Shown in pieces: positions 2,281-25,104 of a stretch of DNA of 64,000 nucleotides (positions within the stretch are counted from its first letter, which is position 1; each line of letters opens with the position of its first letter). The DNA is taken from NCBI RefSeq assembly GCF_018122625.2, contig NZ_JAGQFT020000004.1, positions 1 through 64,000 of the forward strand, read 5' to 3'. A program made the translations under genes and the position numbers. The notes beneath the pieces are model-generated. The model saw only the letters and a list, made by a program, of their open reading frames with translations, ran no database searches and was not told the DNA's origin. Source of the stretch: Coralloluteibacterium stylophorae. Lineage in GTDB: Bacteria; Pseudomonadota; Gammaproteobacteria; Xanthomonadales; Xanthomonadaceae.

Positions 2281-2383
2281 GGGGCACCGTGGGCATGGTG
2301 GCCGACGAGCAGCGCAGCCACGCTGGATCCACGCTTCGAGATCTCAGGACGTGGACCGCGGATGACTGCGGCAGGGGGAAGGG
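2281..2383. promoter_or_regulatory. Divergent intergenic region between dcm and the GHKL-Z1 operon
   Basis: This 103-bp gap must hold the promoters for the leftward methyltransferase gene and the rightward four-gene operon. A GGGGAAGGG stretch just before the ATG at 2384 can serve as ribosome binding site. I do not see a convincing -35/-10 pair or a clear palindrome, so this call rests on gene orientation. Confidence 0.4.
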
Positions 2384-3886: not shown

Positions 3887-3895
3887 GGACTGTTG

Positions 3896-6604: not shown

Positions 6605-7562
6605 CGATCCCTGGGCGGGACTAGGTCCCACGCCGCAGCAGATCATCGGGAACCGGGTCGGCGGACAGCATGCCCTCTCGATCTACTGGGTCCGCAGCCC
6701 GGATGGCTCGCCCGGACTTCTGCTGCGCGGCATCGACCGAGGTGCGGTTCCGTCTGCGCTTCCGCGCCCTCGAGGGCTCGCGATCGCGGTCAGCGCTCCC
6801 GGCGAGCAGCCGGCGGAAGCAGGGCTCTATCTGCAATCCCGGGCGGAACAGGAAGTCTTCGTAGCCCTTTGCAGGGACGTCATCTCCTACTCGTCGAAAG
6901 ACGCAACACCTCGCGGAGCGACGTCGCTCGCTTTTCGCCGGATCGAGCACTGGCATTCGCTCCTCAACCGGCGCGCGCCCGAGGAGATGGGGCCTCAGGA
7001 AGTCCGCGGCCTGATCGGCGAACTCTGGGTGCTGCTTCGCCTCTCGGACGCGATAGGCATGGCAGCTGCCCTGCAATCGTGGGTTGCACCCGACGACCAT
7101 CCGCAGGATTTCGCCACGGGCGGTGGCGTCGTCGAGGTCAAGACCCGACTGGCCGGCTCAAGACCGCATGCCCGCATCTCCTCGCTTGAGCAGCTGGAAG
7201 AGAGCGCACTGCCGCTTCATCTCCTTGTGGTGGAACTGGCACCAGGCAGCAACCCCTCGGCCTTCTCCCTGAACGAGATCGCGCAGCGCGTTCTCGATGT
7301 CGCGGAGGAATATGGCCCGGACACGCGCGACGCCGCTGCACTGGCGCTCCTCCGTCGAGGACACGTCGAGAAGGACGCCTACGATGTGGATAGATACACC
7401 ACCTCCGGCGCGCGGTTGTTCCGGGTTGACGGCACCTTCCCGCGCCTGACGAGATCCCGCACCGACCGTCGCATCCACGCCGCGCAGTACACGCTGGATC
7501 TCACTGCACTTGATCCGTTCGAGTGCCCGCTCAACACCGTTCTTCCGCAGCAGGGAGCGTAG
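6597..7562 (+). CDS. PD-(D/E)XK motif protein (DUF4420-like putative nuclease)
   Basis: The 321-residue product shows a restriction-nuclease-like core, HPQDFATGGGVVEVKTR (about residues 164-180). The Asp of QDF and the Glu-Val-Lys of VEVKT fit the D...(D/E)XK catalytic pattern. It matches the family annotated as PD-(D/E)XK motif protein, which accompanies Z1 and AIPR genes, and it is the best candidate for the DNA-cutting subunit of this operon. I used ATG 6597, which overlaps the Z1 stop by 8 nt. An upstream in-frame ATG at 6567 would add ten basic residues encoded inside the Z1 gene and is less likely. Metal dependence and target are unknown. Confidence 0.85.
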   Translation: MRDDPWAGLGPTPQQIIGNRVGGQHALSIYWVRSPDGSPGLLLRGIDRGAVPSALPRPRGLAIAVSAPGEQPAEAGLYLQSRAEQEVFVALCRDVISYSSKDATPRGATSLAFRRIEHWHSLLNRRAPEEMGPQEVRGLIGELWVLLRLSDAIGMAAALQSWVAPDDHPQDFATGGGVVEVKTRLAGSRPHARISSLEQLEESALPLHLLVVELAPGSNPSAFSLNEIAQRVLDVAEEYGPDTRDAAALALLRRGHVEKDAYDVDRYTTSGARLFRVDGTFPRLTRSRTDRRIHAAQYTLDLTALDPFECPLNTVLPQQGA

Positions 7563-7570
7563 TCAACATC

Positions 7571-9622
7571 ATGGATGAGGAGATTGCGCAGTACCGGGAC
7601 GCTCTGCTCAGCGAGATACAGGCGGACGCCCAGGCGGGCGGCGACTACCTGAGCACGCGGTTCATCGACCGGGTCTGTCAGGTGCTCGAGGCAGGCGAAG
7701 AGTTCGTCGAGTACCACGTGTGTCGCGGCCATACCACCAGCCGGCGAGGCGGCCACATCCAGATCGACGCCTACAGCTTCTCGCCCAACGACGGCGTCCT
7801 GAACCTGATCGTCTGCGACTTCTCGGGCGAAGCGGCACCGCGGCCTTTGGCCACCGACGAAGTCCGCCGCGTCGCCCAAGGTGGCTTCCGCTTTCTGGAG
7901 GGAAGCGTACATGACGCCATAGCAGACCTCTGGGACGAGAGCCATCCTGTGCATGCGCTTTCCCGCGAAGTCTTCTCGATCGCGTCCTCGGACGAGATGA
8001 CGAAGGCCTGCATATACGTCATTTCCGATCGCCTGGCGGGGGCGACACTTGGCAGGATGCCGGAGTTCTCCCTGGGCACGAAGGACGTGGAGCTTCATCT
8101 GTGGGACGTCGCCCGTCTTGCGCGCGTCGAGGCATCCACCAAGGGCCGCGAGGACATCATCATCAATTTCCTGGGCGAGTACGGATGCGGCATCCCTGCA
8201 CTCCCTGCCGGGCTCGACGGCGCCGCAAGGTACGACTCCTACATGTGCGTCATGCCCGGCAGCATCCTCGCCAGTCTGTATGACCGGTTCGGCGGCCGCA
8301 TTCTTGAGCAGAACGTTCGTGCGTTCCTTGGCGACAACCGGAAGGTCAACAAGGGGATCCGGGACACACTGCGCTCGCAGCCCGAGATGTTCTTCGCCTT
8401 CAACAACGGTCTCACCGTGACGGTTTCCGACCTGAACACGAACATCCACGAGTTCGGGCACACCGAGATCATCAGGGCGAAGGGACTGCAGATCGTCAAT
8501 GGCGGTCAGACCACGGCGTCCCTGTATTGGGCAAAGAAGGCCGGGGTCGACCTCTCCCAGGTGTACGTGCAGATGAAGCTGTCCCGCCTTCCCGAGGAGG
8601 GTTTCGAAGACGCGGTCCACGACATCGCGCGATTCGCGAACGCCCAGAATGCCGTCTCCGCTTCGGATCTCTTCGCAGGGCATCCCTACTTCAAGCGGCT
8701 CGAGGCGATCTCCCGACAGACCATCGCGCCTCCTGCGAGGCCGGGGGAAGTCGGGGGCTTCTGGTACTTCGAGCGCACGACAGGCAGCTACAAGGTAGAG
8801 CTCAAGCGCAAGGTTGGGCTGGCAGCCAAGACATGGCAGCTGGTCAACCCGAAGAAGCAGCTCCTCACCAAGACCGATGTCGCCCGCTACGACACCACCT
8901 TCGAGGGGCTGCCCCACATCGTCAGCTCCGGAGCCCAGAAGAACGTCGCCGCATTCGGAAAGCTGATCACCCAGGCGTGGGGAATCGATCCGGCCATGTT
9001 TGACGTCACCTACTTCCGGAGGTTGGTCGGGCGGGCCATCATCACGCGTGCTGTGGACGGCGCGATACCTGCGCAGAGCTGGTACCCCGGCTCCATCGTG
9101 CGCCCCCTATCCAGCTACACGCTTGCATTGATGAGCTCGCGGCTGCAGTCCGCCGGTCTGCAGCCGGATTACGACGAAATCTGGCGTACGCAGCGAGCAC
9201 CCGCAGCTTTCATGGAAGAGGCCATGCGCGTTGCCCGGCTTGTCCTGCCCCTGCTCATGGACATCCCCGAGGAGCAGGTTCGAAATCGTCTTGTGACCGA
9301 GTGGGTCAAGAAGGAGGCCTGCTGGCTTCGCGTCGAGGGCAGCGACCTTGAACTGACCCAAGACTTCCTGGCTACAACCATGCCTGCCGCCGCGGGCACA
9401 CGCCGTCGCCCTGTAGCGTGGAAGGACCGCGCACAACAGCTATGGCGGGACGGCACTTGGAAGCGACTTCACGACTGGAACCGGCTGGAAACGCGATTGA
9501 CAGCTGGCGAGGCGGAGATTGTCGAGTGGGCCGCAGTCGCGTCCAGTTTCGCTCCGAAGGGCTTCCGGCTTCTCAAGCTGGAAGAGGCGATGAAGCACGC
9601 CACGCAGGAGGGCTTCGTCTGA
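7571..9622 (+). CDS. AIPR family protein (abortive infection phage resistance)
   Basis: This protein of about 683 residues carries the hallmark central block of the AIPR family, FNNGLTVT followed by IVNGGQTTASLYWA (about residues 280-320). A mixed alpha/beta N-terminal region with GGHIQIDAYSF...VCDFSG precedes it and may itself be a degenerate nuclease fold. AIPR proteins are known mainly from phage-resistance loci and from the last position of Z1 operons. ATG 7571 lies eight bases after the previous stop. An in-frame upstream start at 7523 would place 16 codons inside the PD-(D/E)XK gene and is less likely. As the terminal gene of a four-gene run it probably works with the ATPases and nuclease. 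Its biochemical activity is not known to me. Confidence 0.9.
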   Translation: MDEEIAQYRDALLSEIQADAQAGGDYLSTRFIDRVCQVLEAGEEFVEYHVCRGHTTSRRGGHIQIDAYSFSPNDGVLNLIVCDFSGEAAPRPLATDEVRRVAQGGFRFLEGSVHDAIADLWDESHPVHALSREVFSIASSDEMTKACIYVISDRLAGATLGRMPEFSLGTKDVELHLWDVARLARVEASTKGREDIIINFLGEYGCGIPALPAGLDGAARYDSYMCVMPGSILASLYDRFGGRILEQNVRAFLGDNRKVNKGIRDTLRSQPEMFFAFNNGLTVTVSDLNTNIHEFGHTEIIRAKGLQIVNGGQTTASLYWAKKAGVDLSQVYVQMKLSRLPEEGFEDAVHDIARFANAQNAVSASDLFAGHPYFKRLEAISRQTIAPPARPGEVGGFWYFERTTGSYKVELKRKVGLAAKTWQLVNPKKQLLTKTDVARYDTTFEGLPHIVSSGAQKNVAAFGKLITQAWGIDPAMFDVTYFRRLVGRAIITRAVDGAIPAQSWYPGSIVRPLSSYTLALMSSRLQSAGLQPDYDEIWRTQRAPAAFMEEAMRVARLVLPLLMDIPEEQVRNRLVTEWVKKEACWLRVEGSDLELTQDFLATTMPAAAGTRRRPVAWKDRAQQLWRDGTWKRLHDWNRLETRLTAGEAEIVEWAAVASSFAPKGFRLLKLEEAMKHATQEGFV

Positions 9623-9875: not shown

Positions 9876-10622
9876 ATGAGGAAAATCTTGAGCTCACAAT
9901 CCAACGTCGAACCCGGCAAGTGGACGCAACTTCCGCCTGTAGCAGGGATGATTAGAGCTCTCGATGCTCTTAAGATACCTGACGCCATGCACCGCGCCAG
10001 AATCATTTACTCCCGCGTGGGCGACTGGCTGATCCGAGCTGCCGTAGTCGCAGCCGGACTTGTGGCGCTTATGGTGCTGCTGGCGTTGCTTGGCATGATC
10101 GATAAAGAGAGCCTGCGTACGCCCGCGACCATATGCTACATAGGGATCCTTCTGTTATCCCTGTCTTGGCTCGCTGTCGAGGTTGTTCAGCTTCTTCATT
10201 TAGATCGCCGCCATCTGATGAGGCCGATCGAGACCATATCTGAGCGTATCGAAGCACAGGCCAAAGAAGATGACCAGTTCATCGGTAAATTGGCGTCTAT
10301 CCCAGCACAGAAACTCCGGGAGTGCCGCGCGAGGATCGAGTATCAGATCGGCAACATCGCGCAGCGCGCGACCGCAGTTGCGGCCATCGTGTCTGTCCTG
10401 GGCCTTCTTCCCAAGGCCTTCCCGATCTTCTCTGAGCAGACCTCCTTGGGCAGCCTGAGCTTGCAACATATCGCAGCATCGATGGCAGTCGGCGCTGGCG
10501 TGGGCGTTGTAGTTTTCTCACTAGCCAAGCCCAAGCTCGCCCGCTTGGCCTTCGTCCTGAAGCTGGCGGAAGATCGGCTCGGCGAGGCTGCAAGTAGCCC
10601 CCCGCTCGCCCGTATCAATTGA
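9876..10622 (+). CDS. Uncharacterised membrane protein with four predicted helices
   Basis: I do not recognise this 248-residue protein. It has hydrophobic segments at about 54-76, 85-108, 165-186 and 205-226. A charged stretch (about 112-160, rich in Arg, Glu and Gln, with coiled-coil character) lies between the second and third helices. Base composition is visibly lower in GC than the chromosome genes to the right, which fits a transferred island. Its stop overlaps a TTG that could start the downstream nuclease gene, so the two are probably co-transcribed. A membrane partner beside a PD-(D/E)XK protein is reminiscent of two-component defence modules. That reading is inference only. Confidence 0.6.
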   Translation: MRKILSSQSNVEPGKWTQLPPVAGMIRALDALKIPDAMHRARIIYSRVGDWLIRAAVVAAGLVALMVLLALLGMIDKESLRTPATICYIGILLLSLSWLAVEVVQLLHLDRRHLMRPIETISERIEAQAKEDDQFIGKLASIPAQKLRECRARIEYQIGNIAQRATAVAAIVSVLGLLPKAFPIFSEQTSLGSLSLQHIAASMAVGAGVGVVVFSLAKPKLARLAFVLKLAEDRLGEAASSPPLARIN

Positions 10623-10660
10623 AGCAGCCGCTATCGATCAATCAAAGCCTCTTCCGCAAC

Positions 10661-11626
10661 ATGGCCATTACTAGAAAGTTCGAGCGCGACATCGACCTGC
10701 TTCTGGCAGAGGAGTTCCTGGTCAATCCAGACTTCGCCTCGTGGTTCCGCTCCCGCACGCGCTTCGCTGCGGAGTCGACGGCGCAGGTCGTCGATGTGGA
10801 CGTGTCCAAGGCCACGGCTGAGGGCGAGTCCGATCTCATCGTGTACTACCAGCGGCCAGACGGTTCCCGCTTCGCGATCTTCATCGAAGACAAGATCGGT
10901 GCTCTCCTGCAGCCGAGCCAGGCAGATCGATATGTGGCGCGGGCGGCGCGGATGGCGGGCAGCGGCTACATCGACGGCGCCGACTTCGTCCTGTGCGCCC
11001 CGAGCTCGTACATCGAAGTGTGTTCGCCAGAAGCGATCGCGGCGTTCCGGGTACGCGTGACCTACGAGGAGCTGGCGACCGCCATCGAGTCCGACGGCAC
11101 TTCGCCCCGTGCCCGCTACCGCGCAAGCTTCCTGCGCGAGGCACTCGCGAAGCCGAAGAGCCAGTGGCAGAAGCAGGTCGACGAGGAGACCGACGCCTTC
11201 TGGATGTCGGCCTACGACCTCGCGTCACGGCACTACCCCATCCTCGAGATGCGGAAGAAGAGCTTCACCAAGGGCCAGACCTGGGTGTCATTTCGACCGC
11301 ACGATTTCCCGACCATGCCGCGGAGGGTCGAGGTGGCCTACAAGGGCGGCTGGGGCTTCGTCGACCTCGCTTTCAGCAGCACGACCGCACACCGGATGCA
11401 CGAGCTACTCAGCAGTCCGCTACCCGACGACATGACGCTGCACCAGACCGGCAAAAGCGCCTCGATCCGAATCACGGTGCCCGAGTTCGTGATCACCGAG
11501 GGGTGGGAGTGCTGCAAAGACGCAATCACTGCCGGCTTCGAAGCTGCTTCCCGGCTCATCGCCTATTTCCGTGAGCACCGATCGTCTCTGCTCGAAGCGG
11601 CGGATGCTGCGCGCCAAGTGGCTTAG
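10661..11626 (+). CDS. PD-(D/E)XK nuclease superfamily protein
   Basis: The N-terminal third carries a clear restriction-like core: an early Glu in FERDIDLLLAEEF, then GESDLIVYYQ (Asp), then FAIFIEDKIGA (Glu-Asp-Lys), with a following QADRY motif. This is the full E...D...(D/E)XK...Q pattern of the PD-(D/E)XK phosphodiesterases. The C-terminal two thirds (PHDFPTMPRRVEVAYKGGWGFVDLAF) look like a separate recognition domain. I chose ATG 10661. A TTG at 10619, overlapping the previous stop, would extend it by 14 residues and cannot be excluded. The protein is about 321 residues from the ATG. It is probably a nuclease acting with the membrane protein upstream. Its substrate is unknown. Confidence 0.75.
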   Translation: MAITRKFERDIDLLLAEEFLVNPDFASWFRSRTRFAAESTAQVVDVDVSKATAEGESDLIVYYQRPDGSRFAIFIEDKIGALLQPSQADRYVARAARMAGSGYIDGADFVLCAPSSYIEVCSPEAIAAFRVRVTYEELATAIESDGTSPRARYRASFLREALAKPKSQWQKQVDEETDAFWMSAYDLASRHYPILEMRKKSFTKGQTWVSFRPHDFPTMPRRVEVAYKGGWGFVDLAFSSTTAHRMHELLSSPLPDDMTLHQTGKSASIRITVPEFVITEGWECCKDAITAGFEAASRLIAYFREHRSSLLEAADAARQVA

Positions 11627-11673: not shown

Positions 11674-11994
11674 CTAGTCCTTCTTGACCCGCGCCTTCAG
11701 CTGTTTCACTAGCTTCCGCTGCTCCGTGAGGGGGAGCCGCGCGATGGCGACGATCGCTTCCGCAATCTCGTCCGTCTCTGCGTACAGCGCTGCCAGCGGC
11801 ATGCCCAGCGCGTCCGCGAGCTTCTTCGCCGTACGCAGGTCGCACTCGTTGACGCCCCGCTCGTAGCGGTTGATCCGCGTGCGGGCCACGTCAGCGACGA
11901 TCCCGGCCGCGACGCCCAGCGCTTCCTGTGTCAGGTCGGCCGCCTTTCGGGCAGCACGCAGACGGTTCGCGAAGATGAGGCGGGCGTCTTCCAA
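11674..11994 (-). CDS. XRE-family helix-turn-helix regulator (paralogue 1)
   Basis: This is a 106-residue Cro/CI-type repressor. The HTH lies in about residues 10-68, from LRAARKAADLTQEALG to TRINRYERG and LADALG. The start must be TTG (11994), because no ATG or GTG occurs in frame before the upstream stop codon. It is related by eye over its whole HTH (about 45% identical) to the second XRE protein at 20,550-20,894; the two share TRINRYE(R/K)G and PLA..YAE. A 19-bp palindrome lies 59 bp upstream of its start and overlaps a possible rightward promoter for the TonB-receptor gene. Autoregulation and control of the receptor-isopeptidase operon are therefore likely. Confidence 0.88.
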   Translation of the reverse strand: MEDARLIFANRLRAARKAADLTQEALGVAAGIVADVARTRINRYERGVNECDLRTAKKLADALGMPLAALYAETDEIAEAIVAIARLPLTEQRKLVKQLKARVKKD

Positions 11995-12227: not shown

Positions 12228-14684
12228 ATGCTGAACGACAAGGCTGTTGTTATGCCCGGCTGCGCCGGGCGCATTGGTGGGATCCACGAAGAGGGCTTCT
12301 CGAAGACCGACAGGAGCAACGGAAGGGGCGGCGCGAGGCCTCCCGCACGTACTGCCCTGGCCGTGGCGCTCGCGTTGCTGCTCGCTTCGGGCGGTGCTGC
12401 CGCTCAGGCGGCGAGGGACAGCGACGTGGACGACACCCTTCCGCCCGATGGCTCGACCACGCCGGAGTCGAACCCCGTCCACCTCGACACCATCGAAGTC
12501 ACCGGCACCCGCATCCGCGGCGGCACGGTGCCCTCGCCGGTGGTCACCATCGATGCGGCGCGGATCGAGCAGGAGGACTTCGCCGACCTGGGCGAGGTGG
12601 TGCGCAGCCTTCCGCAGAACTTCTCCGGCGGGCAGGGGCCCGGCATCGCGCCGGGCGCGACCGGCGGCGGCCAGGGCAACCAGAACATCACCGGCGGCGC
12701 CGGCCTCAACCTGCGCGGGCTGGGGCAGGACGCGACGCTCACCCTGCTCAACGGGCGCCGCATGTCCTACGGCGGCTTCGTGCAGATGGTGGACATCAGC
12801 GCCATCCCGGTGGAGGCGGTGGAGCGGATCGAGATCGTCGCCGACGGCGCCTCGGCCATCTACGGCTCCGATGCGGTGGGCGGCGTGGGCAACGTGATCC
12901 TGCGGCGCGATTTCGACGGCGTGGCGTTGGGCGCGCGCTACGGCGCGGCCACCGACGGCGGGCTCGCCACCCGCGAGGCCACCGCCACCGGCGGCGCGGC
13001 CTGGCAGAGCGGCGGCCTGATCGCCACCTGGAAGAAGAGCAGCAACGACCCGATCCGCGCCGACCAGCGCGACTACACGGACGGCATGTACGCACCGACC
13101 ACGCTCTACCAGGAGGGCGACCTTCGCAGCGGCGTGCTCAGTGGCTGGCAGGAGCTGGGCGACGTGGGCGAGCTGCGGCTCGACGCACTGGGATCGGAGC
13201 GCTCGATCCTCACCGAGATGGCCTACGCCACCAACTACGAGCGCAGCACGCCGGAGACGAGCGCCTCGCTGCTGTCGCCCAGCGTCGAGCTCTACCTGCC
13301 GGGCGGCTGGACGCTGGAGCTGGGCAGCACCTTTGGCCGCGAGCGCACTGACGGTGCCAATGCCGTGGTGACGCCCGCGGCCGGCACCACGACGGTGACG
13401 CGCACCGAGTACCGCAACACCAGCCGCAGCCACGAGCTGGGCGTGGAAGGGCCCGTGGCCAGGGCGCCGGGCGGCGACGCGCGGCTGGCCGCCGGGGTGG
13501 GCTATCGCTACAACGACTTCGAGACCCGCTACCCCGACAGCGGCTACACCCAGGCCAGCGGCGACGTGCGCAGCCGCTTCGCCTATGCCGAGGTCGAGGT
13601 GCCCCTGGTCGCGCCGGACCAGGGCGTCGCCGGCGCGTACCGGCTGGCGCTCACCGGCGCCGTCCGCAGCGAGGACTACGACCGCTTCGGCGACGTCACC
13701 ACGCCCAAGCTCGGCGTGGTCTGGGGGCCCAGCCGCGACGTCACGGTCAAGGCCTCGTGGGGCCGCTCGTTCAAGGTGCCCACGCTCTCCCAGCAGTACC
13801 TGCAGCGCGACGCGATCCTGTTCCCCGCGATCGCGCTGGGCGGCACGGCCTATCCGCCCGGGGCGACGGCGCTCTACCTCGTCGGCGGCAACCCGGACCT
13901 CGACCCGGAGCGGGCGCGCACCTGGAGCGCCTCGCTGGCCTTCCATCCGGCCGCCCTGCCCGGCTTCGAGTCGGAGGTCACCTGGTTCGATGTCGACTAC
14001 AGCGACCGGGTGGTGCAGCCGCTCGTCCCCGCGCAGGCGCTGTCGAACCCGGCCTTCGCGGAGTTCCTCGAGCCCGGGCCCAGCGCGGAGGAGCTGGATG
14101 CCCTGCTGCGGACCTTCCGCTTCACCAACGCGACGGGCCAGCCGCTGGATGCGGCGACGATCGCAGTGGTGGTGCCCAACCTCTACGTCAACAGCGCGCG
14201 GCAGCGCGTGCGCGGCGCGGACGTCTCCGGCCGCTACCGGTTCGACCTGGCCGAGGGCGCGCTGACGCTGCGCGGTGCGCTCACCTGGCTCGACAGCACG
14301 CGCCAGGTCTCGTCGGGCCAGCCGGAGCTCGACATGGCGGGCGAGCTGTTCTATCCGGCCGACCTCAACGCGCGCGTCGGCGCGGTGTGGAACCGCAGCG
14401 GCTTCACCGGCTCGCTGTTCGGCAACTACCGCAGCGGCGTGCGCAATCCGGTGGACGGCGAGGACGGGGCCTCGTTCACCACCTTCGATGCCACGCTCCG
14501 CTACGACACCGGCATGCACGCCGGTGCGCTCTCCGACGTGGCGCTGGAGCTCACCGTCCAGAACCTCCTCGACCGCGCGCCGCCGCTGTATGCGGTGGCC
14601 TCGCCGACCTTCGCGCCCTACGACTCCACGAACTACTCGGCCATCGGCCGCTTCGCTGCCGTCTCCGTCTCCAAGCGCTGGTGA
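12228..14684 (+). CDS. TonB-dependent outer-membrane receptor of the lasso-peptide locus
   Basis: This is an 818-residue beta-barrel receptor expected to import a ligand across the outer membrane using TonB energy. A signal peptide (TALAVALALLLASGGAAAQA) is followed by the TonB-box-like HLDTIEVTGTRI. The plug domain then shows LNLRGLGQDATLTLLNGRR and VERIEIVADGASAIYGSDAVGGVGNVILRR-type blocks. The barrel ends in a terminal aromatic-basic residue pair (SVSKRW), with the closing strand RFAAVSVSKRW. ATG 12228 is chosen for the GGAGG box six bases upstream. The isopeptidase gene follows after 46 bp, a pairing known from proteobacterial lasso loci. Its likely substrate is the lasso peptide or a lasso-ligand complex, inferred from context. 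Confidence 0.92.
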   Translation: MLNDKAVVMPGCAGRIGGIHEEGFSKTDRSNGRGGARPPARTALAVALALLLASGGAAAQAARDSDVDDTLPPDGSTTPESNPVHLDTIEVTGTRIRGGTVPSPVVTIDAARIEQEDFADLGEVVRSLPQNFSGGQGPGIAPGATGGGQGNQNITGGAGLNLRGLGQDATLTLLNGRRMSYGGFVQMVDISAIPVEAVERIEIVADGASAIYGSDAVGGVGNVILRRDFDGVALGARYGAATDGGLATREATATGGAAWQSGGLIATWKKSSNDPIRADQRDYTDGMYAPTTLYQEGDLRSGVLSGWQELGDVGELRLDALGSERSILTEMAYATNYERSTPETSASLLSPSVELYLPGGWTLELGSTFGRERTDGANAVVTPAAGTTTVTRTEYRNTSRSHELGVEGPVARAPGGDARLAAGVGYRYNDFETRYPDSGYTQASGDVRSRFAYAEVEVPLVAPDQGVAGAYRLALTGAVRSEDYDRFGDVTTPKLGVVWGPSRDVTVKASWGRSFKVPTLSQQYLQRDAILFPAIALGGTAYPPGATALYLVGGNPDLDPERARTWSASLAFHPAALPGFESEVTWFDVDYSDRVVQPLVPAQALSNPAFAEFLEPGPSAEELDALLRTFRFTNATGQPLDAATIAVVVPNLYVNSARQRVRGADVSGRYRFDLAEGALTLRGALTWLDSTRQVSSGQPELDMAGELFYPADLNARVGAVWNRSGFTGSLFGNYRSGVRNPVDGEDGASFTTFDATLRYDTGMHAGALSDVALELTVQNLLDRAPPLYAVASPTFAPYDSTNYSAIGRFAAVSVSKRW

Positions 14685-14730: not shown

Positions 14731-16812
14731 ATGGTCGAGGTCGGTGGTCGCAAGGCGTGGAAGTGGGCCCTGGTGCTGGGCGCGTGGCCCTGGCTGCTCG
14801 TGCCGCCCGGGCAGGCGGGCGCGGTGTCGTCCCGGCAGCTGGTGGAGATCGCCGACTTCGGCAGCCCGGTGGTGTCTCCGGACGGGAGACTGGTGGCGTA
14901 TCGCGTGTCCCAGGCGTCGATCGAGCGCAATACGGACGACACGGTCTGGTACGTGCAGCGGATGGACGGGACGGCGCCGCCGCGCCGGGTGGCCGACGGC
15001 GGCGTGCCGCTGCGCGATTCGGCCGGCATCCCGGTGCCGGCGGAGATGGCGTGGTCACCTGACAGCCGCTGGGTCTTCTATCGGGCGCGGCTCGACGGCC
15101 GGGTCGCGGTGTGGCGCGTCTCCGCCGACGGCGCCGTGGCAGAGCCGGTCACCGACGATGCGGCGGACGTGGAGGAGTTCGCGCTGGATGCGGCCGGCAC
15201 GCGGCTCACCTACCGCGTCGGCCTGCCGCGCGAGGCGGTGCGCGACGCGGAAGAGGCGGAGTACGACCGCGGCATCCGCATCGACCGGGCCGCGCCGCTG
15301 GGCCAGGGCCTGTTCCGCTCCGGCCTCACCGAGGGGCGCCTGGCCACGCAACGCCTGGGCCAGGTCTTCAACCGGGTGCCGCTGACCGCGGCGACGGCGA
15401 CGCAGTGGAAGGCCGTCGGGCTGGATGCGGGCACGCGCGACGCCGTGCCCGCCGATGCGCCGGCGGCGCCATCGCTGCCGGCCGTGCTGCAGGACCTTCC
15501 CGATCTCTGGCAAACCGCGGACGAGCCGGGCGGCGACCGCGTTGCCTTCCTCACCCGCAGCGGCGAACGCACGGCGCAGCGGCGGGTCGAGCTGGGCGTC
15601 GCGCGCGGGCCGGGCGCGCGCGACGTGGTGATGTGCCGGGCGGCGGCCTGCACGGGCGCGGAGATCAGCGGCATCCAGTGGCGGCCCGGCAGCGAGGAGG
15701 TGCTGTTCACCGTCACGCGGTACACGGCGGGCTTTGCGCAGTCGATCCATCGCTGGGACGTGGCGAGCGGCGCCGTGCATCCGGTGGCAGCCAGCAACGG
15801 CATGTTCGCCGGCGAGGGCCGCTGGGGCCCGGGAACCTGCGGCGTGTCGGCGGCGGCGCTCGCCTGCGTCACCGCCGAGGCGAACCGCCCGCCGCGGCTG
15901 GAGCGGATCGACCTCGCCACGGGCGCGCGGCAGGTGCTGTTCGATCCGAACGAGGTGCTGGCGCGCGACCTTGGCGCGCTCGACGCGGAACTGCTCCGGT
16001 GGTCGGATGCGGACGGCCAGGTCTTCTCCGGCCAGCTTTATCCCGCGCGCCGCATCGACGGCAGGCCGCCGCCGCTGTTCGTCACCTACTACCGGTGCAT
16101 GGGTTTCGTGCGCGGCGGCGCCGGCGACGAATGGCCGCTCGCCGTGCTGGCGGAGCACGGCATTGCGACGCTGTGCATCAACGCGCCGTCCTTCTCGGCC
16201 GACGCCGCGGAGCGCTACGGCGTGGGCCTGTCGGCGGTCGAGAGCGCGGTCGACCTGCTGGCCGCCGAAGACAGGATCGACCGCACCCGCGTCGGCATGG
16301 GCGGGCTCAGCTTCGGCAGCGAGGTGACCATGTGGACGCTGATCCACTCCGACCTGCTCGCCGCGGCCTCGCTGGCATCGCCGACGACCTCGCCGATGTA
16401 CTACCTGCTGGGCAGCAACATCGGCGAGGAGTTCCTCTCGATCCTGCGGAGCAACTGGCAGCTCGGCGCGCCGGAGGAGACGCCCGCCGACTGGCAGCGG
16501 ATCTCGCCGACGGCGAACCTCGACCGCATCCGCGCGCCGGTCCTGATGCAGCTGGCCGAGCAGGAGACCATGCACGGGCTGGACTACATGATCCCGCTGA
16601 TGCGCGACGGACGCGCGGACATCTACGTGTTCCCGCATGCGCCGCACAACAAGTTCCAGCCCCGGCACAAGCTGGCGGTGTACGAGAGGAACCTGGACTG
16701 GTTCCGCTTCTGGCTGCTGGGCGAGGAGGACGCGGCACCGGCCAAGGCAGCGCAGTACGCGCAGTGGCGGGCGATGCGCGAGCGCCTGGGCGAGGACCTC
16801 GCCGCGCGCTAG
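14731..16812 (+). CDS. Lasso peptide isopeptidase (S9 prolyl-oligopeptidase-like, AtxE2 family)
   Basis: This 693-residue secreted alpha/beta-hydrolase with an N-terminal propeller should linearise the lasso peptide by cutting its isopeptide bond. A signal peptide (WALVLGAWPWLLVPPGQAGA) precedes ADFGSPVVSPDGRLVAYRVS propeller repeats. The nucleophile elbow GLSFGS places Ser at residue 527 and the acidic residue in QLAEQE at Glu610. The His is 636 or 639 in FPHAPHNKF. Ser527 and Glu610 coincide with the positions I recall for AtxE2, which uses the unusual Glu. The ATG at 14731 has AGGAG upstream. The stop overlaps the convergent cyclase gene by 4 nt. Linkage to the receptor suggests uptake followed by hydrolysis of the peptide. 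Confidence 0.92.
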   Translation: MVEVGGRKAWKWALVLGAWPWLLVPPGQAGAVSSRQLVEIADFGSPVVSPDGRLVAYRVSQASIERNTDDTVWYVQRMDGTAPPRRVADGGVPLRDSAGIPVPAEMAWSPDSRWVFYRARLDGRVAVWRVSADGAVAEPVTDDAADVEEFALDAAGTRLTYRVGLPREAVRDAEEAEYDRGIRIDRAAPLGQGLFRSGLTEGRLATQRLGQVFNRVPLTAATATQWKAVGLDAGTRDAVPADAPAAPSLPAVLQDLPDLWQTADEPGGDRVAFLTRSGERTAQRRVELGVARGPGARDVVMCRAAACTGAEISGIQWRPGSEEVLFTVTRYTAGFAQSIHRWDVASGAVHPVAASNGMFAGEGRWGPGTCGVSAAALACVTAEANRPPRLERIDLATGARQVLFDPNEVLARDLGALDAELLRWSDADGQVFSGQLYPARRIDGRPPPLFVTYYRCMGFVRGGAGDEWPLAVLAEHGIATLCINAPSFSADAAERYGVGLSAVESAVDLLAAEDRIDRTRVGMGGLSFGSEVTMWTLIHSDLLAAASLASPTTSPMYYLLGSNIGEEFLSILRSNWQLGAPEETPADWQRISPTANLDRIRAPVLMQLAEQETMHGLDYMIPLMRDGRADIYVFPHAPHNKFQPRHKLAVYERNLDWFRFWLLGEEDAAPAKAAQYAQWRAMRERLGEDLAAR

Positions 16813-18548
16813 GGCTGGTGGCGCACCCAGTTCTCGACCATGCACAGCTCGAACAGGCGCAGGAACGTCTGGTCCCGCGCCGGCAGGTCGTCCGCGGCGA
16901 GGAACTGCGCGATCGCGCGCGTGTCGAGGAGGCCCTGTCCCGCGAGGCGGCCGGAGAGCAGGAAGTCCCGCATCGTGCGTCTGTTCTGCTGGTACACGAC
17001 GCCGAGGTAGCTCATGTACGTCGCCTTGCTCTGGCGGTGCAGGACGTCGGCCGGCAGCCTGTCGGCGAAGGCATCGCGGGCGACGGCGCGGTTGCGTCCG
17101 CCGGCGATCCACATCCAGCTCGGCGTGCGCAGGCAGGCTTCCATGGCCGGCTGCGAGAGCAGCGGGAAGCGGAACGGCCGCCTGGCGCCGCGTGCGGCCT
17201 GGCCCTGGAACAGCTGGTTGCCGGCGAGGTCGACGATGCGCTCGCGGTCGCCGGGCAGCGCGCCGTCGGGTGCGGCCGACCACGGATGCTCGAGCGGTGC
17301 GATGTCGGCCGCAGCCGGTGCGAGGAAGGCGGCGGCGCGATGCGTCGGCGAGCTCGGCGCTCGGCGCAGCTTCGACAGCGTCAGCCGGCCGGCCTTCCAG
17401 AACGTGCACTGGTGCAGCGCGGCCAGGTCGCGCACCGCGGCAAGGCCCGCCCCGGGCCCCTGCGCCGCGAACGCGTCCGCGGCCGGCGCCGCGGTGCGCA
17501 GGTAGCAGAACACCGAGTCGCCGCCACCGCCGGAGTAGAAGCTCGTCGCGCCGTGGCGCTCCGCCGCCTCCTCCATGATCCCGTCGATGGCGTGCTGGAG
17601 CGGGCCCATTCCCGGCGACACGGATTCGGGCGCAGGCACGAACTCAAGTCGTGCGCGCTCGAAGGGCAGCGTTTCGGTGTGCAGCGGCACGCCGAGGGCA
17701 TCGGCCATCAGCTGGGCGTAGTGCCGTTCGTCCACGCCGGGGACCGGCGTGACCAGGTTCACGCAGACGACGCGGGCGGGGCTGTCGGCGAGGCAGGCCG
17801 CGACGATGGAGGAGTCGAGGCCGCCGGACAGCTCCAGCAGGACGGTGCCGTCCATGCTGGCCCACGCACCCACTGTGGCCGCGACTGCGCGGCGCACGTC
17901 GCAGGCCGCCTCATGGGGATCGGTGTGGCGGACTGCGGGTGCGACGAACGCCCACGGCGACCACGCTTGATCGACCGAGACGCGCGACGGCTCGACCCGC
18001 AGCGAGGTGCCGGGCAGCAGTTCGAGCACGTCGCGCAGCCCGGTGCGCTGCGTCTTGATGCCCGGATAGGCCAGGCGGTGCGCGATGGAGTCCCAGTCGA
18101 CCCGCCGTTCGTGGAGGCCCGCGCGAGCGGCCAGGGAAATGTCGGAGGTGAGGAAGCCGCAGCCGTCGGCGATGGCGTAGACGCAGGGGATGTGCCCGGT
18201 AGCCGTCGGCGAAAGGGTGACGATGAGCGCATCGGCCTCGGGCTGGATCAGGAGATACGAGCCCCAGAAGTCGCGCAGGATGCGGCGGCGGACGTCTGCG
18301 GGCACTGCGCATCGGAGGGCAGCGACGGGATCGGCGACCTGCCCGTCGCGCGTGAACAGGTCGCCGATGAGCACCGCGCCGCCGGGCAGCCGCCACCTCC
18401 TGAGGTCGGCCGAGCCGAGGAGCGAGACGCAGGCACCGGCGTGGTGCTCGCGCATGCCGGCGGATTCGAGCCTTCGGGTGACGTCTGCGGCGCGCGCGGC
18501 GAGCTCGTCGCCAGGGCGGCCGAGGACGGCGAGGTAGGCGCCGGCCAT
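16809..18548 (-). CDS. Lasso peptide macrolactam synthetase (C protein, asparagine-synthase-like)
   Basis: This enzyme adenylates the ring-forming Asp/Glu side chain of the core peptide and closes the macrolactam with Gly1. The 579-residue protein has an N-terminal Ntn-hydrolase-like region that lacks the catalytic Cys2 of AsnB (it starts MAGAYL), so no glutaminase activity is expected. The ATP-pyrophosphatase domain begins with the PP-loop SGGLDSS at 241-247 and continues with FYSGGGGDSVF. Its ATG overlaps the TGA of the B gene (ATGA at 18548), indicating translational coupling. It converges with the isopeptidase gene. The missing Cys2 and the B neighbour distinguish it from true asparagine synthetase. 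Confidence 0.93.
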   Translation of the reverse strand: MAGAYLAVLGRPGDELAARAADVTRRLESAGMREHHAGACVSLLGSADLRRWRLPGGAVLIGDLFTRDGQVADPVAALRCAVPADVRRRILRDFWGSYLLIQPEADALIVTLSPTATGHIPCVYAIADGCGFLTSDISLAARAGLHERRVDWDSIAHRLAYPGIKTQRTGLRDVLELLPGTSLRVEPSRVSVDQAWSPWAFVAPAVRHTDPHEAACDVRRAVAATVGAWASMDGTVLLELSGGLDSSIVAACLADSPARVVCVNLVTPVPGVDERHYAQLMADALGVPLHTETLPFERARLEFVPAPESVSPGMGPLQHAIDGIMEEAAERHGATSFYSGGGGDSVFCYLRTAAPAADAFAAQGPGAGLAAVRDLAALHQCTFWKAGRLTLSKLRRAPSSPTHRAAAFLAPAAADIAPLEHPWSAAPDGALPGDRERIVDLAGNQLFQGQAARGARRPFRFPLLSQPAMEACLRTPSWMWIAGGRNRAVARDAFADRLPADVLHRQSKATYMSYLGVVYQQNRRTMRDFLLSGRLAGQGLLDTRAIAQFLAADDLPARDQTFLRLFELCMVENWVRHQP

Positions 18549-19240
18549 CAGACCACGCGTATCGGCGTATGTGCCGACACGTGCCCGACGCTGTCGTTGA
18601 GGACGATGTCGCGGTGCTGCACCCAGCAGTGCGCCGCGAACGGCTGGCCGGCGACGCCGAAGACGAGGTCGGCATGGATGCCCCGCTTCGCCAGGAAGCG
18701 GACCATCGCGATCGAGTCGACGAGGCAGCACGTCTGCACCGGGACGAAGGGCCGCGCTGCGCGGAATGTGGCGGCGGCATCGAGGGCGCGCGATGCGTCG
18801 GCGTCCGAGGTGATTGCGTGCGCTGCGCGTCGGATCCGCAGCGAGACGAGCCGGGCGAGGATGCCCTGCAGCGGACGTGTCCTGAGCTGCAGTTGCGTCG
18901 AGCAGACGGCCGCGAAGGTGTCGAGCACGGCGACCGGGTCGGACGTGCTCCTGCGCTGCCCGCTCTCGGCGCCCGGGCCTTCGATGGCGCTGCGGGTCGG
19001 TCGCGTCACTGACACCTCGGTGGGATGACCGGGGCGGTCAGGGCCCTCCACGAGGATGTTCTGCTGGACCAGCCGGCGAAGCTGGCCGTCCGGCGCCTGG
19101 CGTCCATCCATGTGTTCGAGGAAGGCGGTCTGCAGATCGTCCGCCAGGCGGAAGTAGCGGTCGTTCCGGATGTCCAGAAAGATCAGGCGCCCGTCGGCGC
19201 GACAGAACGAGAGGTCGTGATGCAGGCCCAGCCGGGTCAT
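18548..19240 (-). CDS. Lasso peptide B protein: PqqD-like RRE fused to transglutaminase-like leader protease
   Basis: The 230-residue protein combines both B functions. Residues 1-75 (DLSFCRADGRLIFLDIRNDRYFRL) are the PqqD-like RiPP recognition element that binds the leader. Residues 105-230 are the cysteine protease that removes it. The catalytic residues are probably Cys172 in TCCLVDS, His204 in AAHCWV and Asp216 in VLNDS. A linker of about 35 residues joins the domains. In many bacteria the two are separate B1 and B2 genes; the fused form is usual for proteobacterial lasso loci. The ATG at 19240 has GGAGG nine bases upstream. It lies downstream of the precursor gene and hairpin, and its stop overlaps the cyclase start. 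Confidence 0.9.
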   Translation of the reverse strand: MTRLGLHHDLSFCRADGRLIFLDIRNDRYFRLADDLQTAFLEHMDGRQAPDGQLRRLVQQNILVEGPDRPGHPTEVSVTRPTRSAIEGPGAESGQRRSTSDPVAVLDTFAAVCSTQLQLRTRPLQGILARLVSLRIRRAAHAITSDADASRALDAAATFRAARPFVPVQTCCLVDSIAMVRFLAKRGIHADLVFGVAGQPFAAHCWVQHRDIVLNDSVGHVSAHTPIRVV

Positions 19241-19262: not shown

Positions 19263-19286
19263 GGGGCGCGCCTTGCGGCGCGCCCC
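19263..19286 (-). terminator. Strong hairpin between lasso precursor gene and B gene
   Basis: GGGGCGCGCC (19263-19272) pairs perfectly with GGCGCGCCCC (19277-19286) around a TTGC loop, giving a 10-bp all-GC stem. On the coding strand it begins 7 nt after the precursor stop. No T-run follows, so it is probably not a full terminator. More likely it is an intercistronic stem that stabilises the short precursor mRNA and lowers expression of B and C. Confidence 0.65.
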
Positions 19287-19292
19287 GGTCGG

Positions 19293-19433
19293 TCATGCTT
19301 CGGAGATGCCCTCGAGCGGGAGGACACCGAAGTTCTCGGTGATCCCCGCCATTCCCTTGGTCTCGATGCTGGCGACACCGAGCTCGATCACGTCCTGCGG
19401 CACCTGCTCCCGTGCGTTGTCGTTCGCGTTCAT
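19293..19433 (-). CDS. Lasso peptide precursor (A peptide)
   Basis: A 46-codon gene with a near-perfect ribosome binding site (AAGGAG, 7-nt spacer) lies directly upstream of the B and C genes. The leader is residues 1-26, and Thr25 provides the conserved Thr at position -2. The core is residues 27-46, GMAGITENFGVLPLEGISEA. Gly1 can cyclise with Glu7, giving a seven-residue ring like that of the xanthomonins; the other Glu residues (15, 19) are too far away. After ring closure the calculated monoisotopic neutral mass of the full-length core is about 1985.98 Da. The gene is easy to miss because it lies inside a longer spurious frame. C-terminal trimming of the core cannot be excluded. Confidence 0.9.
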   Translation of the reverse strand: MNANDNAREQVPQDVIELGVASIETKGMAGITENFGVLPLEGISEA

Positions 19434-19451
19434 CCCAGTTCTCCTTACGGT

Positions 19452-19476
19452 TGCGTCATGGCCGATCCATGACGCA
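19452..19476 (-). promoter_or_regulatory. 9-bp inverted repeat in the leader of the lasso precursor gene
   Basis: TGCGTCATG (19452-19460) and CATGACGCA (19468-19476) form a perfect inverted repeat around a 7-nt spacer, ending 6 nt upstream of the AAGGAG ribosome binding site. It could be an operator for the adjacent GntR regulator or an mRNA hairpin that controls access to the ribosome binding site. I cannot locate the promoter precisely. Confidence 0.6.
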
Positions 19477-19596
19477 CACACGCTAGGCGCGCAGGTTTCT
19501 GATTCTCCAGTGATTATTCGTCTGTAGTCGGATGATTGATTGGGACCGTGACGCGCGCCCGCGCGCATGAGTGGCGTGGCGGGGAAAGGCGGCGTT

Positions 19597-20226
19597 TCAG
19601 TGGAAGCGTTCGCTGCGCTCGTTGAGCAGCGCCACGATCTCCGGCACCAGGCGCTTGCGGCGCTCGTGGTAGCCGCGCAGCTCCGCTGCCAGCGCGGGGA
19701 TGTCGCGCTGCTGCCAGCGAATGTGCAGCTGCGCGAGTTCGTCGAAGGTGCTCTCGAGCAGGCCCTGCTTGGCACGGCGGATCGGCGCCAGCCGGTCGTT
19801 GGCCTGGCGGACGGCGCGGTGCAGGGATCGGTGGCCCGTGGCACCGGCGATGGTGTCGAAGAGCTTCCAGGTCAGCTTGACCAGGTCGTCGCTGGCCGAT
19901 CGAGGGCGGAGCTCGACGGCGGTGCGCCGCGGCGCCGGCGTGCCGATATCGAGCGCCATCAGCAACAGGCGCTGCATCCAGTCGTAGAGGTCGTGCATGG
20001 CGAGCTCGGTGAGCAGCGGGACGTAGAGGCCCTCGCGCGCACGGTCGACGAGCAACCCCTCGCCCACCAGGCGGTACAGCGCGAAGCGCACCGGCGTCGG
20101 GCTGATGTGGAACTCCGCGGCCAGCGCCGCCGGATCGACCCGCTCGCCCGGCACGTAGCGCCCCGCCTGCAGGGCCCGCCGCAGCTGGCGATAGACCAGC
20201 ACGCTCTTGGAGTGGTTCGCCGCCAT
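19597..20226 (-). CDS. GntR-family transcriptional regulator of the lasso locus
   Basis: The 209-residue protein begins with a winged helix-turn-helix of the GntR type (about residues 6-72: VYRQLRRALQAGRYVPGERVDPAALAAEFHISPTPVR). The remainder is a helical, FCD-like effector domain. ATG 20226 is preferred over the in-frame ATG at 20247 because GGAG lies seven bases upstream. The gene is co-directional with and 163 bp upstream of the lasso precursor gene, so it probably controls that operon. The ligand is unknown. A small peptide or amino-acid-derived signal would fit the locus, but nothing in the sequence shows it. Confidence 0.87.
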   Translation of the reverse strand: MAANHSKSVLVYRQLRRALQAGRYVPGERVDPAALAAEFHISPTPVRFALYRLVGEGLLVDRAREGLYVPLLTELAMHDLYDWMQRLLLMALDIGTPAPRRTAVELRPRSASDDLVKLTWKLFDTIAGATGHRSLHRAVRQANDRLAPIRRAKQGLLESTFDELAQLHIRWQQRDIPALAAELRGYHERRKRLVPEIVALLNERSERFH

Positions 20227-20549: not shown

Positions 20550-20894
20550 ATGACAGAGCAGGAGCACTACCCCGTCCCCGCCCGCCCGCTGCGCCCGACG
20601 CGGGAGCGTCGCGATTGGGCACCACCCACGCGCGGGGCGGTGCCGGTCTACAGCCGCAGGCTGCGCGAGGCGCGCCTCGCGCGCGGACTCTCGCAGCGCC
20701 ACCTGGGCTCCGATGCCGGGCTGCCCGAGGCCGTGGCGAGCACCCGCATCAATCGCTACGAGAAGGGCGCGCACCAGCCGGACCTGCAGACGATGCAGAA
20801 ACTGGCTGCGGTGCTGGGCTGTCCGCTGGCCTATTTCTACGCCGAGGACGACGACCTGGCGAAGCTGATCCTGGCGTTCGCGAGGCGACGCTAG
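20550..20894 (+). CDS. XRE-family helix-turn-helix regulator (paralogue 2)
   Basis: This 114-residue protein has a variable, Pro/Arg-rich N-terminus (about 30 residues) and then a Cro/CI-type HTH: LREARLARGLSQRHLG, TRINRYEKG, KLAAVLGCPLAYFYAED. ATG 20550 carries AAGGAG five bases upstream; an in-frame upstream start would have no such site. It is a paralogue of the XRE protein at 11,674-11,994, and each gene has a matching palindrome just upstream. Together they bracket the lasso locus. Autorepression is likely, and shared or antagonistic control of the locus is possible. Confidence 0.88.
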   Translation: MTEQEHYPVPARPLRPTRERRDWAPPTRGAVPVYSRRLREARLARGLSQRHLGSDAGLPEAVASTRINRYEKGAHQPDLQTMQKLAAVLGCPLAYFYAEDDDLAKLILAFARRR

Positions 20895-20934: not shown

Positions 20935-22250
20935 CCAGCCCCCCTCTCCCCGGTGGCGCGCCTCCAGCACAGCGCGACCTGCCCCCTCTCCCCTTGCGGG
21001 AGAGGGTTGGGGTGAGGGGGCGCGGCGACAGCCGCGTGCTCTTCTCTTCCGGCTGCGGTCGGCGCGCTACGCGCTCCCCCCATCCCAGCCTTCCCCCGCA
21101 AGGGGGGAAGGGGCCAGAAGCAGAAGCGTCGCGAACTCCCTCTCCCCTTGCGGGAGAGGGTCGGGGTGAGGGGGCGCGGCGACAGCCGCGTGCTGTTTTC
21201 TTCCGGGTACGGTCGGCGCGCTGCGCGCCTCCCCCCATCCCAACCTTCCCCCGCAAGGGGGGAAGGGGCCAAAGCAGAAGGCCGGAAGGTGACGCGCCTC
21301 CAGCACATCGCGACCGCCCCCTCTCCCCTTGCGGGAGAGGGTTGGGGTGAGGGGGCGCGGCGACAGCCGCGTGCTGTTTTCTTGCCGGATGCGGTTGGCG
21401 CGCTGCGCGCTCCCCCCATCCCAGCCTTCCGCCGCAAGGGGGGAAGCGGCCAAAGCAGAAGGCCGGAAGGTGACGGCCTCCAGCACAGCGCGACCGGCCC
21501 CCTCTCCCGCCTGCGGGAGAGGGTTGGGGTGAGGGGGCGCGGCGACAGCCGCGTGCTCTTTCGTTGTCCGGGTGAGGTCGGCGCGCTTCGCGCCTCCCCC
21601 CATCCCAACCCTCCCCCGCAAGGGGGGAAGGGGCCAAAGCAGAAGGCCGGAAGGTGACGCGCCTCCAGCACAGCGCGACCTGCCCCCTCTCCCCTCGCGG
21701 GAGAGGGTTGGGGTGAGGGGGCGCGGCGACAGCCGCGTGCTGTTTTCTTCTGGGCACGGCCGGCGCGCTGCGCGCTCCCCCCATCCCAACCTTCCCCCGC
21801 AGAGGGGGGAAGGAGCCAGAAGCAGAAGCGTCGCGAACTCCCTCTCCCCTCGCGGGAGAGGGTCGGGGTGAGGGGGCGCGGCGACAGCCGCGTGCTCGTT
21901 TCCTGCCGGGGCGGTCGGCGCGCTTCGCGCCTCCCCCCATCCCAGCCTTCCCCCGCAAGGGGGAAAGGGGCCAAAGCAGAAGCGTCGCGAACTCCCTCTC
22001 CCCTTGCGGGAGAGGGTTGGGGTGAGGGGGCGCGGCGACAGCCGCGTGCTGTTTTCTTGCCGGGTGCGGTCGGTGCGCTGCGCGCTCCCCCCATCCCAGC
22101 CTTCCCCCGCAAGGGGGGAAGGGGCCAAAGCAGAAGGCCGGAAGGTGCGCGCCTCCAGCACATCGCGACCGCCCCCTCTCCCCTTGCGGGAGAGGGTTGG
22201 GGTGAGGGGGCGCGGCGACAGCCGCGTGCTCTTCTCTTGGGGCCAGGAGC
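20935..22250. repeat. Large cluster of GC-rich dispersed repeats (about eight units)
   Basis: The stretch is built from two alternating modules. One is CCCTCTCCCC(T/C)TGCGGGAGAGGG followed by TTGGGGTGAGGGGGCGCGGC and GACAGCCGCGTGCT, an imperfect hairpin seen at about 20982, 21139, 21318, 21501, 21684, 21839, 21995 and 22172. The other is CCCCCATCCCAACCTTCCCC, a CGCAAGG core, then GGGGAAGGGGCC and AGAAGGCCGGAAGGTGACG. Units recur every 150-185 bp with small differences. No spacer set or Cas genes exist, so this is not CRISPR. Open frames across it are artefacts. The same modules recur at 24.3-25.1, 27.3 and 31.7 kb. Confidence 0.85.
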
Positions 22251-24319: not shown

Positions 24320-25085
24320 GGTGCTGTTGTTTGCTCGTGCGAAGTCGAGTGCGCTTCGCGCCGCCCCCCATCCCAACCTTCCCCCGCAAGGGGGGAAGGG
24401 GCCAAAGCAGAAGGCCGGAAGGTGACGCGCCTCCAGCACATCGCGACCGCCCCCTCTCCCCTCGCGGGAGAGGGTTGGGGTGGGGAGGCGCGGCGGCAGC
24501 CGCGTGCTGTTGCGTGCGCGGCTCGGTGCGCTTCGCGCCGCCCCCCCATCCCAGCCTTCCCCCGCAAGGGGGGAAGGGGCCGAAGCAGAAGGCCGGAAGG
24601 TGACGGCCTCCAGCACAGCGCGACCTGCCCCCTCTCCCCTTGCGGGAGAGGGTTGGGGTGAGGGGGCGCGGCGATAGCCGCGTGCTCTTTTCTTCCGGGT
24701 ACGGTCGGCGCGCTGAGCGCCTCCCCCCATCCCAACCTTCCCCCGCAAGGGGGGAAGGGGCCGGGAGCGAAGCGCAGACAACTCCCTCCCCCCTCGCGGG
24801 AGAGGGTTGGGGAGAGGGGGGCGCGGCGGCAGCCGCGTGCTGTTTTCTTGCCGGATGCGGTCGGCGCGCTACGCGCTCCCCCCATCCCAACCTTCCCCCG
24901 CAAGGGGGGAAGGGGCCAAAGCAGAAGCGTCGCGACCCCCCTCTCCCCTTGCGGGAGAGGGTTGGGGTGAGGGGGCGCGGCGATAGCCGCGTGCTCTTTT
25001 CTTCCGGGTACGGTCGGCGCGCTGCGCGCCCCCCCCCCATCCCAGCCTTCCCCCCGCAAGGGGGGAAGGGGCCGAAGGCAGGAGC
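24320..25085. repeat. Second cluster of the same GC-rich dispersed repeats (about four to five units)
   Basis: The two modules described for the cluster at 20.9-22.2 kb recur here. The leucine-zipper-like CCCTCTCCCC...GGGAGAGGG hairpin unit appears at about 24452, 24629, 24786 and 24938. The AACCTTCCCC...GGGGAAGGGG unit appears at about 24373, 24553, 24735, 24893 and 25045. The cluster fills the space between the HAF-protein gene and the CGNR-regulator gene. I see no gene here. Confidence 0.85.
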
Positions 25086-25104
25086 GAACCGTCGCGCTTT
25101 CTCG

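Follow-up and report, generated by a model that had tools for sequence, protein, structure and literature searches.

A predicted xanthomonin-type lasso peptide with a seven-residue ring, and its isopeptidase-type gene cluster, in Coralloluteibacterium stylophorae

The window analysed here, a stretch of 64,000 nucleotides of C. stylophorae DNA, carries a very short reading frame that an initial annotation had taken for a lasso peptide precursor. This raises the question of which peptide the gene encodes, and whether a complete system for making it lies around it. Judging from sequence comparisons, by far the likeliest reading, with a probability of roughly 0.88, is a complete class II lasso peptide cluster of isopeptidase type, belonging to the xanthomonin/benenodin kind. 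The precursor gene and its ribosome site are as follows.

19293-19433, minus strand: lasso precursor gene A (ORF translation, Pfam PF24178, NCBIfam NF033522, homologues)
19441-19446, minus strand: Shine-Dalgarno AAGGAG, 7 nt before the ATG of gene A

The initial annotation described a 46-codon gene with an AAGGAG site ahead of B and C genes, together with Thr at -2, Gly1 and Glu7. The reading frame was found at these coordinates and is read from 19433 to 19293 on the minus strand, which had been left unstated, and all three residues are present in its translation. The precursor consists of a leader of 26 aa, MNANDNAREQVPQDVIELGVASIETK (19433-19356), and the core GMAGITENFGVLPLEGISEA (19355-19296), followed by the stop codon. 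It contains no Cys, as expected of class II, and its core has no acids other than Glu7, E15 and E19. In alignment A2 of relatives, the GGA of the Shine-Dalgarno site is invariant and its remaining positions are nearly so. The precursor scored above the curated cut-offs of both Pfam Subterisin PF24178 (48.3 bits, E=1e-12, cut-off 27) and NCBIfam benenodin NF033522 (39 bits, E=5e-10, cut-off 33). These scores, with the homologous cores and clusters described below, support the proposed reading as a lasso precursor akin to the xanthomonins; the size of the gene, presented as an oddity ("unannotated-size"), is not one, since curated families cover precursors of such size. The pN/pS of the precursor against its four closest relatives is 0.35-0.60, showing that purifying selection acts on it. 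A chance ORF was ruled out by the curated-family scores, synteny and pN/pS. The genome was searched for a second precursor copy and none was found, so the gene is single copy.

Homologues of B were present in 61 of the 395 genomes of the family sample. Homologous precursors adjoined B in all 29 other family loci that were fetched, and were read in 74 of the 80 named loci. A near-identical core, GMAGITENFGLVPIDGISEA, occurs in Rhodanobacter sp. ANJX3, and the nearest cores further include GQMGITENFGAVPLDGISDA (Stenotrophomonas sp. MMGLT7) and GLSGITENFGAVPVTGISDA and GLSGITENFGAVPMEGISDA (a Rhodanobacter MAG and Oleiagrimonas), while Xanthomonas loci carry GGPLAGEEIGGFNVPGISEE, of xanthomonin type. 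A full-text literature search returned no published copy of the core, a weak negative as the same search also missed the xanthomonin core. The peptide is new, whereas its type, that of the xanthomonins, is already known. Among the loci was also a 3133 bp contig labelled Paenibacillus dendritiformis (L092) with a xanthomonad-type lasso B gene and precursor, which is probably contamination of that assembly.

The size of the ring can be approached through the homologous cores. Glu is found at position 7 in 46 of 55 distinct xanthomonad cores. Gly10 occurs in 34/34 cores whose sole acid at positions 7-9 is at 7 and in 0/8 cores with an acid at 8 only, of which six have Gly11 (Fisher P=8e-9 for Glu7-Gly10 versus acid 8 without Gly10, uncorrected for shared ancestry). 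This pattern indicates that the acid and the Gly keep a fixed spacing. Rhodanodin of Rhodanobacter thiooxydans (GVLPIGNEFMGHAATPG) reportedly has an eight-residue ring, which fits the spacing rule; its core was found at locus L094 with the acid at 8. By its residues (E7, G10), the core here follows the seven-ring register, and the predicted seven-residue ring from Gly1 to Glu7, already proposed in the initial annotation, is well supported by the comparative data. Because the cleavage site is inferred from Thr-2, the leader might be cut elsewhere, or another acid might enter the ring, and the ring would then not have seven residues. We regard this as highly improbable, since Thr-2/Gly1 is conserved family-wide and Glu7 is in register with Gly10. 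E15 and E19 were considered as acceptors and rejected as out of range, being too distant for a ring of 7-9 residues. Published work on xanthomonin II agrees with this: Thr-2 cannot be dispensed with there, and an E7D variant was not confirmed to be produced (PMC4960549). A seven-residue ring as such is not new, given the xanthomonin cores in Xanthomonas and the 2015 prediction of one for a Stenotrophomonas acidaminiphila homologue (PMC4675943).

The end of the tail, GIS(E/D)x, is conserved among the cores. For the full-length core, a mass near 1985.98 Da had been proposed, and recomputation (core minus water) gave 1985.977 Da. The mass thus stands, but the main product is probably shorter than the full-length core. 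The crystal structure of xanthomonin I lacks four tail residues (PMC13352647), and on this ground the main product here is predicted to be a trimmed core, most likely the 16-mer GMAGITENFGVLPLEG, with a computed mass of 1585.781 Da after loss of water.

The genes around the precursor extend beyond the B and C genes, which the initial annotation had identified correctly; it had overlooked the isopeptidase, the TonB receptor and the regulators.

18548-19240, minus strand: fused B protein (NF033537, PF13471, conservation)
16809-18548, minus strand: C protein, asparagine-synthetase-like lactam cyclase (PF00733, SGGLDSS ATP motif)
14731-16812, plus strand: lasso peptide isopeptidase, E (NF033523 equivalog, AtxE2 structure match, triad)
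12228-14684, plus strand: TonB-dependent receptor (PF00593, PF07715, synteny), start codon uncertain
19597-20226, minus strand: GntR-family regulator (PF00392), upstream of A and present in 20/20 relatives
20550-20894, plus strand: XRE-type HTH regulator (PF01381; orthologues by lasso clusters)
11674-11994, minus strand: second XRE-type HTH regulator (PF01381), divergent from the TonB receptor gene, start uncertain

B and C are on the same strand as A and overlap as TGATG. B combines a putative leader-recognition N-terminal half, B1-like by position, with a B2 cysteine protease. The B2 half matches NF033537 above its cut-off, and across 21 loci Cys172 and His204 are invariant and position 216 (Asp here) is Asp or Glu. 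The N-terminal half is conserved among relatives; no Pfam domain, PqqD-like included, was above threshold there, and a comparison of B with the PDB gave no match. In C, the residues of the SGGLDSS motif are invariant in the 21 loci. C and E are convergent, their stop codons overlapping in the CTAG at 16809-16812, which leaves no space for a terminator; the gaps are short in relatives too.

E belongs to the Atxe2 family of isopeptidases (NF033523, 634 bits, cut-off 400). Its best PDB match is AtxE2 (5txc, E=2.6e-47), whose Ser527/Glu610/His638 align with Ser527/Glu612/His639 of E, a triad that is invariant in 21/21 loci. This enzyme also bears on whether the peptide is a lasso at all. Sequence cannot reveal threading, seven residues make the smallest known ring, and there are few bulky plugs near the ring (Asn8, Phe9), so that a peptide closed at Glu7 could be unthreaded, that is, branched-cyclic. 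However, isopeptidases need threaded substrates, and one is conserved here with its triad intact; in addition, threading is seen in xanthomonins, whose rings are equally small (PDB 4NAG). An unthreaded product is therefore improbable, and we retain a threaded lasso as the predicted product.

The order GntR-A-B-C><E-TonB is common to all 20 relatives examined for gene order, in a few of which A was read by the precursor motif and not by BLAST. Similarly, a GntR gene before A and a TonB gene after E have been reported for isopeptidase clusters (PMC9266682). The presence of the isopeptidase, the TonB receptor and the regulators places the cluster in the isopeptidase clade, whose members are mostly without antimicrobial activity (PMC9266682). 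A review also describes a sigma/anti-sigma pair downstream of isopeptidase clusters (PMC9266682), which counts as a usual companion and not as a defining part. No such pair was seen adjoining the cluster, where XRE-type regulators stand by the TonB and GntR genes instead, and no dedicated ABC transporter is encoded from one XRE gene to the other (11.7-20.9 kb). The second XRE-type regulator is 51% identical to the first. Orthologues of the first reached 100 bits or more in 26 cases in the family sample, and 23 of these have a lasso B gene no further than 8.1 kb away. Most relatives have the orthologue beyond the TonB gene; in the present cluster that end holds a weaker paralogue, and the close orthologue is found on the GntR side.

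Several other features flank the cluster in the window. An Mza anti-phage system occupies 670-9622, with a cytosine methylase (670-2280, minus strand), MzaB ATPase (2384-3886), MzaC Z1 (3893-6604), MzaD PD-(D/E)XK (6567-7562) and MzaE AIPR (about 7559-9622), accompanied by a Vsr endonuclease at 223-669. Between it and the lasso cluster, the ORFs 9876-10622 and 10619-11626 had no Pfam or PADLOC match. GC-rich repeat arrays with a period of about 154-181 bp lie at 20984-22136 and 24349-25086; they are made of inverted repeats of the CCCTCTCCCC-TTGCGGGAGAGGG type, 86-93% alike.

The precursor gene has a hairpin on each side, and a possible promoter element precedes the upstream one.

19452-19476, minus strand: 5' hairpin TGCGTCATGG-ATCGG-CCATGACGCA, conserved and covarying in relatives
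19480-19485, minus strand: TAGCGT, possible -10 element, in a family TAnnnT block just 5' of the hairpin
19263-19286, minus strand: A-B intergenic hairpin GGGGCGCGCC-GCAA-GGCGCGCCCC, after the stop of A

The 5' hairpin sits just upstream of the ribosome site of A and has an equivalent in nearly all relatives. Its pairing was significant against mononucleotide shuffles in 56 of 74 single sequences (p<=0.05). In a 33-sequence alignment, 9 of its 10 pairs were changed on both sides, and the covariation score was 0.237, compared with 0.141 after shuffling (0/500) and no more than 0.127 in slid controls. When the 395 family genomes were scanned with a covariance model, all 50 matches at E<1e-6 lay next to a lasso B gene; these include training members, and the informative part is the absence of strong matches elsewhere. 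The model also detected the alpha-proteobacterial loci L127, L113 and L122, two of the three being in the training alignment by sequence. Rfam holds no family for this hairpin, its two weak sub-threshold matches lying elsewhere, and no description of it was found in the open-licence literature.

The T, A and T columns of the TAnnnT block are conserved (alignment A2), and the position of this block immediately upstream suggests that the transcript starts near the hairpin base. That the loop varies in length and that pairing positions change together favours an RNA stem-loop. We tentatively propose, at just short of an even chance, that isopeptidase-type lasso messages begin with a 5'-terminal stem-loop that stabilises or regulates the precursor mRNA and are accompanied by a co-travelling XRE-type regulator, the pairing having been kept through sequence change in xanthomonads and several alpha-proteobacteria. 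The inverted repeat could instead serve as a DNA operator bound by the neighbouring GntR or XRE regulator. Its position immediately after the TAnnnT block is one where repressors often bind, the GntR gene always adjoins it, and most of its arms are near constant in gamma-proteobacteria. On the other hand, its spacer varies from 3 to 6 nt, unlike most dimer sites, and the alpha-proteobacterial arms differ in sequence with pairing still kept. G-U outnumbers A-C by about 19 to 8 at the four pairs just outside the CATG core, a count that leans towards RNA but is uncorrected for composition or ancestry, and over nine hairpin pairs the two are even, 20 to 20 (uncorrected). An operator is thus a serious possibility, though we think it somewhat doubtful. 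Returning to the stem-loop, one weak match of the model (R1, 35.5 bits; genome G019, L136 8063-8120, plus strand) precedes a lipoprotein-like gene with no lasso genes, indicating that matches under about 36 bits are not specific to lasso loci. There, a TCCTAGG block, a hairpin and AGGAGA stand ahead of the gene in a layout as at A, a hint that promoters with a 5' stem-loop may be a general arrangement.

Of 57 relatives, 55 have a comparable hairpin between A and B, in many cases capped by a GNRA-type loop. Hairpins at this place have been described before in lasso clusters, and are removed or replaced for expression work (PMC7549694). The state of these elements also bears on whether the cluster is a silent or decaying remnant from which no peptide is made. 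The single copy in the genome would allow this, but all genes are intact, the catalytic residues and both hairpins are kept, and the precursor is under purifying selection (pN/pS 0.35-0.60), so a remnant is quite unlikely.

From the gene content and the comparisons above, we infer ring closure, threading, trimming and re-uptake, and roles for the regulators and hairpins, as follows. B would bind the leader and cut after Lys-1, next to Thr at -2. C would use ATP to activate the side chain of Glu7 and couple this to the amine of Gly1, so that a seven-residue ring encloses the tail, and the C-terminal ISEA would probably be trimmed to leave mainly the 16-mer. The secreted lasso, or a complex of it with cargo, would probably be re-imported by the TonB receptor, as is hypothesised in the field, and E would hydrolyse the Gly1-Glu7 bond to give a linear peptide. 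The system would be controlled by the GntR and XRE-type regulators. The 5' and A-B hairpins on either side of the precursor message probably stabilise it and maintain it at a higher level than the enzyme messages.

If correct, the peptide adds a seven-residue-ring subgroup, with ITENFG cores in Xanthomonadaceae and Rhodanobacteraceae, to the few characterised examples. Glu7-Gly10 versus acid 8-Gly11 may serve as a simple in-register rule predicting ring size in the family. In addition, the 5' hairpin and the linked XRE regulator could be handles on when isopeptidase-type clusters switch on, and hence on their role.

Among published systems, the nearest kin are xanthomonins I-III of Xanthomonas, reportedly described by Hegemann et al. 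in 2014, and the StcA peptide of Stenotrophomonas acidaminiphila. The xanthomonin core GGPLAGEEIGGFNVPGISEE shares Gly1, Glu7, Gly10 and a GISE-type tail with GMAGITENFGVLPLEGISEA, and the xanthomonin clusters resemble this one in having a fused B, C, isopeptidase, TonB receptor and GntR gene in the same order. However, Xanthomonas loci usually carry two precursors and this one carries one, the ring and tail residues here (ITENF) differ from those of xanthomonins, and the B proteins are about 42-45% identical. The class II lasso StcA of Stenotrophomonas acidaminiphila shares the leader pattern and a predicted seven-residue ring; its core, GILQGNEPMGGEPVPGISEE, differs from the core here, and StcA is likewise a prediction (PMC4675943). 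With the benenodin/subterisin families (NF033522, PF24178), the precursor has scores above both cut-offs and the isopeptidase clade in common, but the alpha-proteobacterial relatives examined mostly have the acid at 8 or 9, compared with 7 here. AtxE2 (PDB 5txc) and the sphingopyxin isopeptidase (5jrk) have a Ser-His-Glu triad and the fold family of E, although their sequence kinship to E is distant and the substrate ring here is predicted to be smaller. The closest likeness is to the ITENFG precursors of Rhodanobacter, Oleiagrimonas and Stenotrophomonas sp. MMGLT7 (L051-L054), which have nearly the same core, for example GMAGITENFGLVPIDGISEA, and differ from it by a few ring and tail substitutions.
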